DNA of 64,000 nucleotides from Candidatus Zipacnadum vermilionense (lineage in GTDB: Bacteria; Armatimonadota; Zipacnadia; Zipacnadales; Zipacnadaceae): positions 62,001-126,000 of the forward strand of contig JALGSV010000009.1 of assembly GCA_029821755.1 (NCBI GenBank), given 5' to 3'. The notes below the pieces were generated by a model, which had not been told where the DNA came from, did not search any database, and was given only the letters and a program-made list of their open reading frames with translations. The position numbers and the translations under genes were made by a program. Of the stretch, positions 27,125 through 50,182 are shown in pieces; position 1 is the stretch's first letter; each line of letters begins with the position of its first letter.

Positions 27125-27952
27125 CTACTGTAGCCCTCCCGCCGCCGCTTCGTCCCCCATCACCCGCGCCCCTCGACACCGGTAGAGAATACTCGCCGGC
27201 CACTGCGGGTCGAAATCCTCATACCCCGCCAGCCGCCGCAGCGCCTGCTGCTTACCCTCGCCCCAGGCGATCAGCACCACCTCTCGCGACAGGCCCGCGA
27301 TCGTCCCCAGCCCCACCGACACCCCATACTTCGGCACCGCGGCTATGTCACCGAACTCCGGGAAGGTGAGCAGGTTATCCCGCCGAGTGGTCTCCGCTAT
27401 CTTAATCAGCCGACTCCCCGCCTCCGCCGGTGTCCCCGGCGGATTAAAGGCCACATGCCCATCCCCCGCCCCGGTCGCCACGATGAACAGGTCCACCCCG
27501 CCCGCCGCCCGGACCCTTTCGTCATACGCCTCCGGATCATTCGGCTCCGGGAACCACACCTGTCCCTCCGGAATCCGCTTCCCCTCCTCCAGCCCCGCGT
27601 TGATCACCCCCGCGATCTCCTCCCGCGCCGCCCGGTGACAGCTATAGTGCGCATCGCCCGGGCAGTTGACGAACCCGGCCTCCGGCGACCCCAGCAGGTA
27701 CTCATCCATCATCACCAGCGTGACTTGCGACAGGTCCTCCGGGCTGCCCGCGACCCGCCGCCCCAGCGCCTGGTACGTGGGCATCGGGCTCCTCCCGCCC
27801 GGGCACCCCAGCACATACCTGCGCCCCTCCCGCGCCGCCTGCTGAATCCCCTCCAGGATCACTTCCGCCAACCCCTCCCCAAGCGCCACCGGATCGGTGA
27901 AGACCGCCACCGGTATGGGAGGAATATGGTTACCTAGCACTGTATTTCGCAT
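27125..27952 (-). CDS. nagB: Glucosamine-6-phosphate deaminase-like protein (NagB family)
   Basis: A 275-aa protein of the NagB/6-phosphogluconolactonase fold. The family marks are kept: GCPGGRSPMPTYQAL (phosphate loop), VMMDEYLLG (catalytic Asp-Glu region) and GAGDGHVAFNPPG (the GIGxDGHIAFNEP motif, shortened by one residue). The product would turn glucosamine-6-P into fructose-6-P plus ammonia, downstream of NagA. The start is set by GAAGGA eight bases before the ATG of MRNTVLG; the frame extends upstream only through a dispersed repeat. The shortened active-site motif leaves some doubt about activity. Confidence 0.85.
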   Translation of the reverse strand: MRNTVLGNHIPPIPVAVFTDPVALGEGLAEVILEGIQQAAREGRRYVLGCPGGRSPMPTYQALGRRVAGSPEDLSQVTLVMMDEYLLGSPEAGFVNCPGDAHYSCHRAAREEIAGVINAGLEEGKRIPEGQVWFPEPNDPEAYDERVRAAGGVDLFIVATGAGDGHVAFNPPGTPAEAGSRLIKIAETTRRDNLLTFPEFGDIAAVPKYGVSVGLGTIAGLSREVVLIAWGEGKQQALRRLAGYEDFDPQWPASILYRCRGARVMGDEAAAGGLQ

Positions 27953-28040
27953 GGACCCATCCTTCCGAATGTTACCGGCCTTCGCGTGTCGCGCAGTGGG
28001 TGCTGCTTGAGGCCAGTTCTGACCCCCCTGGCCGCTCTGC

Positions 28041-28082
28041 GACCCCCTCTCCTGCAAGGAGAGGGGGCAGGGGGTGAGGCTC
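28041..28082. repeat. C-rich hairpin repeat (family A), copy 7
   Basis: CCCCCTCTCCTGCAAGGAGA plus GGGGGCAGGGGGTGAGGC: a near-perfect hairpin with a GCAA turn. It is preceded by CTGGCCGCTCTGC, exactly as in the copy at 31.7 kb. It lies between the kinase and NagB-like genes. Confidence 0.7.
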
Positions 28083-28116
28083 CGCACCCGGTGCTGCCCA
28101 TACAACCAGGCCATGA

Positions 28117-31742: not shown

Positions 31743-32567
31743 CTACCCCTCCCCCGGCGTGAGCTGCGCCCCCGCCGTGGACAGGCGGGGCAGGTCTCCA
31801 GCCGGCTCGTACCCCATCCCCAGGTCGTCCATGCACGCCATCAGCACCATCAACTGGTGCCGAATCCGCGTCTCCAGGGGCAGCTTCCGGCACGTCTCAA
31901 TGCTGGTCGCCGGCACCTTCAGCCACCGGTACGCCTCGTAGGTGGGGCAGTGCTCGAAGGGCTTCACCTTCACCAGGAACCGATCGTGCTCCGGGGTGAT
32001 ATCCGGGTTGACCCGGTCGAGAATCGCCTGCATGTGCGGGGTCAGGGCGTCAAAGTCGTAAGTGAGGGTCTGGCCGTAGCGGTCGGGCTCCTCGCGGTAG
32101 AAGCCCACTGACTCGTGCAGCGTGACGATCAGGTCGGGCTTGCTGTCGCGCATCAGCGCCCAGATCGCCGCCGCCAGGCGGTGCATCAAGTCGCCCTGGG
32201 CGTCGCCGGGGAACAGGGCGTTCATATTGCCCGGATAGGCCCGCTCGCCCCGCGCGATCGCCATCTTATGCGCCCGCGGCACCAGGATCAGCGTGCCCTT
32301 GGTGATTCTCCAGTCCACCAGCCGGTCAGCGGCCAGGTACCCCGCGACCTCATCCCCATGCATCCCCCCGGCCACGAACAACCGCGGCCCCTCAACCTCG
32401 CCGGACTTGATCCAGTACTTGGTGGCACAAGGTGTCCCCTCCATCAGCATACCAGTCTGCACCTCCTCGGCGCGAGCGGGAAGGGCGGCCGCAGCCAGCG
32501 CACTAGACAGCACGGCGACGCGGACAGCCGTCGCAGCGAGAGCGATCATGGTAGCTGTGCGGCTCAT
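31743..32567 (-). CDS. Secreted succinylglutamate desuccinylase/aspartoacylase-like (M14) protein
   Basis: A 274-aa protein with a signal peptide (TAVRVAVLSSALAAAALPARA) and an M14-type zinc-peptidase core. Features are GGMHGDEVAGYLAADRL (HxxE zinc ligands), NMNALFPG and TLHESVGFY (third ligand His and a nearby Glu). The family hydrolyses amide bonds in small molecules or peptidoglycan-like substrates. The ATG overlaps the stop of the upstream DNA methyltransferase (ATGA), so it is translated in step with that gene, an unexpected pairing. An outer-surface peptidase or amidase role is my inference. Confidence 0.82.
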   Translation of the reverse strand: MSRTATMIALAATAVRVAVLSSALAAAALPARAEEVQTGMLMEGTPCATKYWIKSGEVEGPRLFVAGGMHGDEVAGYLAADRLVDWRITKGTLILVPRAHKMAIARGERAYPGNMNALFPGDAQGDLMHRLAAAIWALMRDSKPDLIVTLHESVGFYREEPDRYGQTLTYDFDALTPHMQAILDRVNPDITPEHDRFLVKVKPFEHCPTYEAYRWLKVPATSIETCRKLPLETRIRHQLMVLMACMDDLGMGYEPAGDLPRLSTAGAQLTPGEG

Positions 32568-33490
32568 TCCGGCGACCTGCTGTTCCGGAAGATCAGGCAG
32601 TAGTGATGGTGGTAGTTGGGCACGAATACCTTGGGGTAGCCCCAGATGCCTAGGCGCTTGCTGTTCTGGCACCAGATTCTCTCGCCCTGGAAAAGCCAGG
32701 TCTGGCTGATCCTCCGGGCCAGGTCCCAGGCTAGCGGGAGCACCTCGCCGCCGGGGGCGCGCAGGTTTTGGACTACCACTACCATGTACTTGCCCGGCTT
32801 GATCACCGCCCGGCAGCGGTCGAAGACCTCCCCCAGCGACTCGATGAACTCGTCGTAGTCGCCGACGTTGCCCAGGTCCTGCGCGTGGGGGGAGTAGACC
32901 TGGTCCAGGCCCTGCTCGATGCGCTTCTGGTGCTTGGACTCCACCCCGCCGCGCGGGTGGTGGAGCATGTCGAAGTACGGGGGGGAGGTGAGGAGGAAGT
33001 CAAAGAGGGGGAGGTCGCTAGTGGCGGCGGAGTCGTTTCCCGGTACGACGGGCGTCTCGCCCGTCGTACCGGGGAGAGAGGTCCACAACTCCGGGCTGTC
33101 CACCTCCCGCGCATCGCCCTGGATCACCCAGGCGTCCGTCTCCCGGCTCTGTGGCTCCAAGCGCTTCCGGGCGACCTCCACGTACTTCTCCGACAGCTCA
33201 ATCCCGACGCCGTTGCGGCCCTGTTCGAGGCAGGAGACCAGGGTGGCGCCGCTGCCGCAGAAGGGGTCCAGGACCCAGCCGCCCGCTTTGGTGAAGAACT
33301 GGAGAAACTCGACGACCATCTCCTCCGGGAAGCGGGCCGGGTGGAGTTCCGTGGCTTTGTTCTTACGATAGCGCCGGGAGTCGCAGATGAACCAGGACTT
33401 GGTGAGCTTGATCCACTCGGTGCCGGTGAGGTCGTTGAGGAGGTTGACGATGCGTTTCTTGGGGCGTTTGGGGGAAGGGGAAGTGGGCAT
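32564..33490 (-). CDS. DNA methyltransferase (N4-cytosine/N6-adenine type), orphan
   Basis: A 308-aa amino-methyltransferase. Motif I DPFCGSG is at 75-81 with the SAM acid region GVGIELSEKYVEVARKRL, and the catalytic TSPPY is at 168-172; the S-P-P-Y form favours N4-cytosine. No restriction endonuclease gene is adjacent, so it is an orphan. Residues about 139-151 (LPGTTGETPVVPG) are encoded by a perfect DNA palindrome of a dispersed repeat family and look like an in-frame insertion between motifs. The start is an ATG (MPTSPSP) with no clear ribosome-binding site; a TTG five codons upstream is possible. The stop overlaps the next gene's ATG. Confidence 0.87.
   Translation of the reverse strand: MPTSPSPKRPKKRIVNLLNDLTGTEWIKLTKSWFICDSRRYRKNKATELHPARFPEEMVVEFLQFFTKAGGWVLDPFCGSGATLVSCLEQGRNGVGIELSEKYVEVARKRLEPQSRETDAWVIQGDAREVDSPELWTSLPGTTGETPVVPGNDSAATSDLPLFDFLLTSPPYFDMLHHPRGGVESKHQKRIEQGLDQVYSPHAQDLGNVGDYDEFIESLGEVFDRCRAVIKPGKYMVVVVQNLRAPGGEVLPLAWDLARRISQTWLFQGERIWCQNSKRLGIWGYPKVFVPNYHHHYCLIFRNSRSPE
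33039..33073. repeat. Palindromic element (family C) inside the methyltransferase gene
   Basis: CCCGGTACGACGGGCG, a 3-bp loop, then its exact reverse complement: 16-bp arms. The same GACGGGCG/CGCCCGTCGTACCGGG sequence occurs after gatC at 48.7 kb. Here it is read in frame. Confidence 0.75.
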
Positions 33491-33507
33491 GGGGATTGGG
33501 GGCAAAC

Positions 33508-48674: not shown

Positions 48675-48712
48675 GGCGCGACGGGCGAGGACGCCCGTCG
48701 TACCGGGGATGA
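48675..48712. repeat. Palindromic element (family C) after gatC
   Basis: GACGGGCG-AGGA-CGCCCGTC with the tail GTACCGGGGA. This is the intergenic counterpart of the in-frame palindrome in the DNA methyltransferase gene at 33.0 kb. Confidence 0.65.
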
Positions 48713-49003
48713 CTACTCCACGATTCTGGGCACACGGAAGTACCCATCCACGCCGTCGGGGGCGTTCTGGGTGGCCTCGTCGGGGGAGAGGCTCTCCCCC
48801 ACCGCGTCCTCGCGATAGACGTTGACCAGGGGAAGGGCGTGGGAGGTGATGGGCACCTCGCTGGTGTTAAGCTGCTGCAGCTCGGCGAAGTAGTCGAGGA
48901 TGCGATTGAGCTCGCGGCCTACACGGGCCAGCTCCTCCTCGGATAGGGCCAGCTTGGCGAGGGACGCCACGTGGCGCACCTCGGCCTCGGTTATCTCAGG
49001 CAC
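48713..49003 (-). CDS. gatC: Aspartyl/glutamyl-tRNA amidotransferase subunit C
   Basis: A 96-aa GatC with the usual pattern: EAEVRHVASLAKLALSEEEL, NRILDYFAELQQLNTSEVPI and a Pro-rich end DGYFRVPRIVE. The protein stabilises the GatCAB complex that amidates mischarged Glu-tRNA(Gln) or Asp-tRNA(Asn). gatA and gatB are not next to it in the window. The start is GTG nine bases after AAGGAG. It is the last gene of a run that starts with the LapA-like protein. Confidence 0.95.
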   Translation of the reverse strand: MPEITEAEVRHVASLAKLALSEEELARVGRELNRILDYFAELQQLNTSEVPITSHALPLVNVYREDAVGESLSPDEATQNAPDGVDGYFRVPRIVE

Positions 49004-49072: not shown

Positions 49073-50182
49073 TCAGATTCTCTGCGGCCGTATCTTCGCT
49101 CGGTGGAGGGCGAAAGCGGTGATCCGGTAGGCCAGGAAGGCCAGGATGTAGAGGATCGCCACCAGGTAGCCCCAGCGGACGCGGCGGGAGGTGACGGTGA
49201 TCTCATAGGCCTCGCTGGCGCCGGAAAGGGTGAAAGTAGCGGTGTCCCCCTGCTTCTCCGGCGCGAGACTGGGGCCGGAGCTCATTCTGGCCGGGGCCGG
49301 CGCTTCCGAGGCAGGCATTGCAGCCGGAGCGGGCGCCCTCGACGGCGCGGGAGAAGGCGGGAGGGGCGCTGGAGCCGGCGCGGCAGCGGGAGCGGGGGCC
49401 GTCGGAGCAGGGCCCGGAGTCGCCACGCGTGGGGCAGGTGCGGTGGGAGCCGGTCTCGAGGTAGGAGCCGGAGCAGGCGCGGCGGGCGCAGCTGGAGCCG
49501 GTCTCGAGGTGGCGGCCGGAGCAGGCGCGGTGGGCGCAGCTGGAGCTGGCCTCGAGGTGGCGGCCGGAGCAGACGCGGTGGGCGCAGCTGGAGCTGGCCT
49601 CGAGGTGGCGGCCGGAGCAGGCGCGGTGGGCGCAGCTGGAGCCGGTCTCGGGGTGGGGGCCGGAGCCGGCGCGAGGCTGGGCGCGGCCGCCTGGGGCGCG
49701 GGCTTCTCCACCTTAGTCGGCTTGGCGTTGGCCTCCGTCACCGTGCCCGGCATGACGACGACATATTTAAGGATCGCCTTCCCCGGTTCCGCCTTCTCCA
49801 CTGCCGTCGCCGTCTCACTGGGCACCTGCATGGTCTCGGTCCAGGTGTAATAGGTGAAGAGGCTGAGCGGGTGGGCAACGGTGTCCTCGTACTGCAGGTT
49901 CGCGCCTTCAATCTGGGAAGCGGAGGACAGGATTACGTTCCACACCGCCTTTAGCCCCTCCCCGACCGGGGTCACCAGCCGACGGTCGGCCTCCGGCAGG
50001 GCGCGCTTGACCTGCGCCAGCACGTTGGCCCGACGCGCCTGCAGGAACTCCGCCGTCACCTCACGCTGAATCGAGCCGTCCAGATAGACGGTCGTGCGCA
50101 CCGTCGTGGACTGGGCCGACGACAGCAGCAGGAAGGGGATGATGGCCAAAGTGACCAGATGGGCGCGGGGGCACTGGCTCAC
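49073..50182 (-). CDS. Secreted Pro/Ala-rich repeat protein with C-terminal membrane anchor
   Basis: A 369-aa protein of unknown function. A signal peptide (HLVTLAIIPFLLLSSAQS) is followed by a folded domain of about 125 aa (VYLDGSIQREVTAEFLQARR...). A low-complexity Pro/Ala stalk of about 160 aa built partly from a 16-residue unit (RPAPAAPTAPAPAATS) comes next, then a short beta segment (TATFTLSGASEAYEITVTS), one transmembrane helix (GYLVAILYILAFLAYRITAF) and a basic tail. The topology is outside-facing with a stalk, like a surface-anchored adhesin or sensor. The start is GTG. It lies between the LapA-like gene and gatC. Confidence 0.78.
   Translation of the reverse strand: MSQCPRAHLVTLAIIPFLLLSSAQSTTVRTTVYLDGSIQREVTAEFLQARRANVLAQVKRALPEADRRLVTPVGEGLKAVWNVILSSASQIEGANLQYEDTVAHPLSLFTYYTWTETMQVPSETATAVEKAEPGKAILKYVVVMPGTVTEANAKPTKVEKPAPQAAAPSLAPAPAPTPRPAPAAPTAPAPAATSRPAPAAPTASAPAATSRPAPAAPTAPAPAATSRPAPAAPAAPAPAPTSRPAPTAPAPRVATPGPAPTAPAPAAAPAPAPLPPSPAPSRAPAPAAMPASEAPAPARMSSGPSLAPEKQGDTATFTLSGASEAYEITVTSRRVRWGYLVAILYILAFLAYRITAFALHRAKIRPQRI
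49453..49692 (-). repeat. Five tandem 48-bp coding repeats
   Basis: Near-identical 48-bp units recur at 49453, 49501, 49549, 49597 and 49645, encoding the 16-residue Pro/Ala unit. The outer units are more diverged than the middle ones, as expected from slippage or unequal exchange. Confidence 0.85.

Follow-up and report, generated by a model that had tools for sequence, protein, structure and literature searches.

A REP-family palindrome read in frame within a methyltransferase loop of an Armatimonadota genome

The window analysed here is a 64-kb stretch of DNA (C114:62001-126000) from a 4.39 Mb draft MAG in 115 contigs, referred to below as the own genome (G000). It contains a methyltransferase gene whose reading frame passes through a palindromic repeat, and a related copy of this repeat in a spacer. 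The features concerned are as follows.

32564-33505, reverse strand: host gene, encoding a SAM-dependent N6/N4-type methyltransferase (Pfam N6_N4_Mtase, E 2.1e-27), with starts at ATG 33490 and TTG 33505
33248-33268, reverse strand: motif I, DPFCGSG, in columns that are invariant or near-invariant in alignment A2
33039-33073, no strand assigned: REP palindrome with 16-bp arms and a 3-nt loop, read directly, of the GGTA[C/G]-GACGGGCG-TC(C)T-CGCCCGTC family
33038-33073, reverse strand: captured codons PGTTGETPVVPG in the phase TG[E][T]PV, by translation residues 140-151 from the ATG at 33490
32975-32989, reverse strand: catalytic motif TSPPY downstream of the loop, with the SPPY columns invariant in alignment A2
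48675-48712, no strand assigned: second window copy of the REP family, with a 4-nt loop, intergenic (covariance model match, 57.2 bits)

The Pfam N6_N4_Mtase domain, motif I and the (S/T)PPY motif together place the product of 32564-33505 among the N6/N4 methyltransferases, and its orthologues, at approximately 55-72% identity, are widespread in Armatimonadota (records under Candidatus Zipacnadia, WS1 and Armatimonadetes). In the predicted structure of the protein (pLDDT 81, pTM 0.84), the insert falls in a coil at residues 142-157, where pLDDT is below 50 and secondary structure is lacking. The methyltransferase with its insert presumably still works. The best PDB folds for this product were the tRNA m2G10 methyltransferases Trm11/TrmN (TM approximately 0.45), and the substrate may be DNA or RNA.

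The palindrome reads cccggtacgacgggcg-tct-cgcccgtcgtaccggg, with perfectly paired 16-bp arms around a TCT loop, exactly as the sequence-only reading had described it. That reading had also placed the repeat in frame inside the methyltransferase ORF, encoding PGTTGETPVVPG between DPFCGSG and TSPPY, which was borne out. No other palindrome in the window has arms of at least 12 bp with loops of 3-5 nt. Base composition predicts approximately 0.0002 palindromes with 16-bp arms, compared with the one present in 64 kb, and a pattern built from the inner 12-bp arms gave 0 matches in 100 shuffles. On the basis of these shuffle and composition controls, a chance origin was rejected.

Genome-wide searches demonstrated that the palindrome is not unique, with 18 exact core palindromes in the whole own genome and 0 in a reversed control. 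A degenerate pattern allowing 3 mismatches proved uninformative in this GC-rich genome (135 matches compared with 195 in the control), and a covariance model was adopted for this reason. With E<=1 as the cutoff it gave 97 matches, of which 50 stayed at E<=0.01, distributed over many contigs; it scored the methyltransferase copy (G000:C114:95034) at 56.7 bits. The consensus of the aligned copies carries its GGTA foot on a single side, and the next base, the fourth of the foot, is usually C and sometimes G, giving GTAC or GTAG and not a strict GTAG. Most copies have a 4-nt loop and a long arm on one side only; GGTGGCACCGGCGTCTCGCCGGTGC is the second common variant in the own genome, and CCTCCCGGTAC is found upstream in many copies. 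The spacer copy at 48675-48712, already picked out by the sequence-only reading, is of this one-sided form and sits directly downstream of an ORF on the reverse strand (48713-49003), 1 nt from its stop end. Inverted dimers occur at C58:25125/25161 and C21:62357/62390. The repeat is a REP family, that is, a dispersed palindrome of 20-40 bp, mostly intergenic and present also as inverted dimers. Covariance model matches were found in other members of the same GTDB family, with 49 in G002, 49 in G003, 70 in G011 and 33 in G008, and the same search returned none in G004 and G006.

The position of the insert was then compared across 49 aligned methyltransferase homologues. Between GDAR and the TSPPY strand, the segment measures 13-28 aa in most of them (median loop length 24 aa), 34 aa in the window protein, 47 aa in L037 and L038, and 31 aa in L039. 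Only the window protein and L037/L038 have the TTGxxPV insert of this REP, and the L039 loop carries other repeats. The peptide is absent from most orthologues and is not conserved across the family. Conservation of the peptide, or a palindrome unique in the genome, would have undone the sequence-only reading, and neither was observed. Since the nearest orthologue (L036/L185) is just 72% identical and its loop merely 7 aa shorter, an empty site and a target duplication are not readable for the window copy.

The same loop has received repeats in several relatives. In L186 (G003) and L188 (G011) it contains GGTACGACAGGCGTCTCGCCTGTCG, which is the same REP inverted relative to the window copy, with a compensatory change in the stem, and is read in the window copy's phase as GTTGVSPVGR; L042 and L044, congeneric with these two, are without GGTACGACAGGCGTCTCGCCTGTCG and have a loop 26 aa shorter. 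The loop of L187 (G002) contains CCCCCTCCCCTGCCAGGGGAGGGGG plus a CACCGGCGAGACGCCGGCG stretch, and that of L213 (G026) an inverted pair of GCGGGCTTCCAGCCCGC. Both repeats are abundant in the genomes of their hosts, CCCCCTCCCCTGCCAGGGGAGGGGG at approximately 45 places in G002 and GCGGGCTTCCAGCCCGC with approximately 90 exact matches in G026. Taken together, the window copy and the three captures in relatives, namely the REP in the opposite orientation, a CCCCTCCCC palindrome and the GCGGGCTTCCAGCCCGC pair, amount to at least four independent events in one loop.

The methyltransferase is not the only host. Copies were counted as intragenic when both flanks were coding in a single frame, according to a hexamer coding score and not a gene caller. 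By this definition, 14 units were found in the own genome (window copy included) in nine or ten genes. The other hosts include genes for DnaE, RecQ, a PFL-like glycyl-radical enzyme, GH127, a PMT-type glycosyltransferase, a ketoacyl synthase, a GDSL lipase and a lectin-domain protein. The proposal of the sequence-only reading that in-frame capture is frequent in this genome holds in that capture is recurrent, but per copy it is rare, with approximately 14 of 72 copies intragenic in the regions examined around the repeats. With the window approximately 93% coding, the surviving copies are mostly intergenic, and a proportion of about one-fifth within genes is as expected if most insertions into genes were lost.

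An empty site is preserved in DnaE, where the congener G002 reads DYTVETGQIRCGLRF and the own genome has a REP dimer at that very site, a net gain of 22 aa (66 nt); in DnaE of G001 (L343), other repeats make up an insert of approximately 70 aa at this position. Both this empty site and the methyltransferase orthologues without the peptide mark the copies as in-frame intragenic REPs. In RecQ, the copy occupies the linker that joins HRDC to DUF559. For the glycyl-radical enzyme (L134), the alignment pairs REP-coded residues with host residues, and no clean 12-aa extra segment stands out. Elsewhere, a GH38-type mannosidase (L162:1640-4450) includes three repeat-derived stretches, TTGVKRIPDSQPV, GATGVSSV and TGETPVPP. 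Two neighbouring ORFs (L172:1079 and L172:3054) have EPSTGETPVPPG at similar places, perhaps from a capture that preceded duplication.

All three phases of the REP are open. Nevertheless, 12 of the 14 own-genome units are in the phase TG[V/E][S/T]PV (binomial p 8e-5), a bias measured on few genes with flank gene calls made by a simple coding score. Each of the two off-phase units forms the second half of an inverted dimer, and the first half of that dimer keeps to the TG[V/E][S/T]PV phase. Units that share a gene are non-independent, and counted by gene the first unit is always in this phase, in all nine or ten hosts. Across six genomes, 19 of 25 units as scored are in the same phase (p 1.6e-5), a figure that understates the bias in that the G011 methyltransferase copy (L278) was scored on the wrong strand, its correct reading being GTTGVSPVGR. 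Coding-score thresholds from 0.2 to 0.5 gave the same picture. The other two phases encode arginine-rich peptides (DGRxARRT and RRASRPS).

RAYTs mobilise REPs and REPINs, and the own genome gave five Y1_Tnp (RAYT) matches. One RAYT gene (C22:1992-2537; L181:1925-2558) is flanked by perfect inverted copies of CCGGTAGCACAGGCTTCCAAGCCTGTG, a sister REP that shares the CCGGTA foot and, with up to 3 mismatches allowed, occurs at 55 places genome-wide. This RAYT gene with its inverted CCGGTAGCACAGGCTTCCAAGCCTGTG copies appears to be a complete REPtron. Among the 20 Y1_Tnp loci examined, no RAYT was flanked by the exact REP of 33039-33073, and the REP copy near L333 is more than 1 kb away from its Y1_Tnp gene. 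G004 and G006 lack matches to both the REP and Y1_Tnp. Co-occurrence is weak evidence, since G005 (assembly 84% complete) has 18 REP matches with no Y1_Tnp detected, and many relatives have Y1_Tnp without this type of REP. RAYT-type Y1 transposases most likely mobilise this REP family.

We consider it very probable that the REP inserted into a variable surface loop of the methyltransferase and was kept since it preserved the frame and encoded a small, neutral, turn-rich peptide. The basis for this reading is the repeat family, the absence of the insert from orthologues, the independent captures, the phase bias and the DnaE empty site. Such REPs would have spread across the genome, most likely via RAYT-type Y1 transposases, and landings inside genes would mostly have been lost by selection. 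The survivors would be those in permissive loops, with lengths in multiples of three bases and in the phase T-G-(V/E)-(S/T)-P-V in place of the arginine-rich phases. Under this proposal, several unrelated palindromic repeat families would have entered the methyltransferase loop, and likewise the DnaE loop, independently in related species.

The phase bias might instead stem from the insertion mechanism, if a transposase preferred a short target with a biased codon phase and always inserted in the same register. The CCTCCCGGTAC stretch upstream of many copies might reflect a preferred C-rich target, and GC-rich coding DNA has a strong phase periodicity. However, the two orientations, TGVSPV and TGETPV, show one phase, which is unexpected for a fixed distance from one end of an asymmetric element; moreover, second dimer units fall in another phase, and the flanks of single intragenic copies, inspected by eye, are without a clear common target. 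We therefore regard this mechanism as unlikely. Because both orientations obey the same phase, selection on the peptide is favoured over a target-site effect, on a small sample. Improbable, too, is that the captured repeat was kept for a positive function, for example as an mRNA hairpin acting on the pace of translation or the level of expression, or as a loop that alters substrate recognition. The coding-strand RNA hairpin of the insert is indeed strong (-38 kcal/mol, z -5.25), and the REP core is the same in L037 and L038 despite different flanking loop sequences. Yet most orthologues do without the insert, and the low synonymous divergence of the REP between L037 and L038 (1 of 11 four-fold sites, compared with 33% outside it) is suggestive only, resting on too few sites. 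We give a similarly low probability to the broader proposal that a few protein loops in this order are recurrent landing pads for unrelated palindromic repeat families, taken up in one phase, with inserts kept as helpful, through an mRNA hairpin or a loop function, and not merely tolerated.

Two further readings concern whether there is an insertion at all. A misassembled intergenic repeat or a mis-called frame might be suspected in a draft genome of 115 contigs, as inverted repeats are error-prone, but the coding score is strong in the same frame on both sides of the insert (0.66 and 0.90), DPFCGSG and TSPPY flank it, and two independent assemblies (L037 and L038) have a like arrangement at the same loop; an artefact is accordingly very improbable. 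Scarcely credible is an ordinary lineage-specific loop that is palindromic by accident. Loop length and sequence do vary across the methyltransferase family, but this reading is contradicted by the repeat family itself, with the same DNA dispersed in approximately 50 mostly intergenic copies, by the small chance expectation for 16-bp arms given above, and by the independent repeats that occupy the same loop in relatives.

In-frame capture of a REP in a permissive loop, the preferred reading, has precedents, and the element described here is a further case of a known kind, since REPs in frame within genes have been published before. Intragenic REPs were described from many species by Di Nocera et al. 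(2013), among others in replication and repair genes and, in two Xanthomonas species, at about the same site of recB; tolerance by loops was proposed there (PMC3733652). Those GTAG-tagged and intragenic REPs resemble the present family in being short dispersed palindromes with a one-sided tetranucleotide foot, found as singles and inverted dimers, mostly intergenic and sometimes in frame, including in DNA replication and repair genes (PMC3733652). Unlike them, the present family belongs to another phylum, has another sequence and carries a foot that is mostly GTAC, with GTAG in the minority; here, moreover, one loop has received several unrelated repeat types, DnaE shows an empty site and the phase bias is strong (compared with PMC3733652). 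The Rickettsia palindromic elements RPE-1 to RPE-7 are read in frame within ORFs that predate them, DNA polymerase III alpha among these, and map to solvent-exposed regions; orthologues bear different inserts at one locus (PMC3767692). The likeness extends to palindromic repeats translated in frame, a DnaE-type host and different inserts at the same locus. Identity with these elements was nevertheless rejected: they are 100-150 bp long and of unrelated sequence (PMC3767692), whereas the element here is 35 nt with a REP-type hairpin, and the relatives of this genome are Armatimonadota. REPINs with RAYTs likewise combine inverted REP dimers and Y1 transposases in one genome (PMC3116915, PMC2817692), and a further likeness is the one RAYT here that is flanked by inverted sister REPs; in contrast to such systems, no RAYT was seen flanked by the exact REP. 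A paper on Zipacnadia (PMC10290634) makes no mention of such repeats, and a literature search for TTGVSPV and TGETPV peptides gave OmpA and other unrelated proteins only.

What is added here is the phylum, with in-frame REP capture extended to Armatimonadota, and a single loop that unrelated repeats have entered again and again; the measured phase bias may be a further addition. The case fits a known but little-studied route by which selfish DNA lengthens proteins, here by approximately 12 aa in a floppy loop. The process is traceable in this group, with empty and filled sites in congeners and several unrelated repeats in one loop, and the phase bias reports which repeat-encoded peptides proteins tolerate. 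The contribution of selfish palindromes to protein sequence thereby becomes a testable question.

The sequence-only reading had counted another repeat family invading a reading frame in the window, taken here to be LTPCPLSLQERG (28023-28089) in ORF 27125-28114 on the reverse strand, and this part probably does not hold. The Pfam domain of that ORF begins at residue 74, and GGAAGG followed by an ATG at approximately 27952 lies downstream of the repeat. With a better start and the domain both downstream, LTPCPLSLQERG probably precedes the true start codon of this glucosamine-6-phosphate isomerase-like gene and goes untranslated there. Repeats of the LTPCPLSLQERG class are, for their part, in frame in L187 and L343. 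The window also contains an array of 48-bp tandem repeats at 49389-49724, inside ORF 49073-50182 on the reverse strand.
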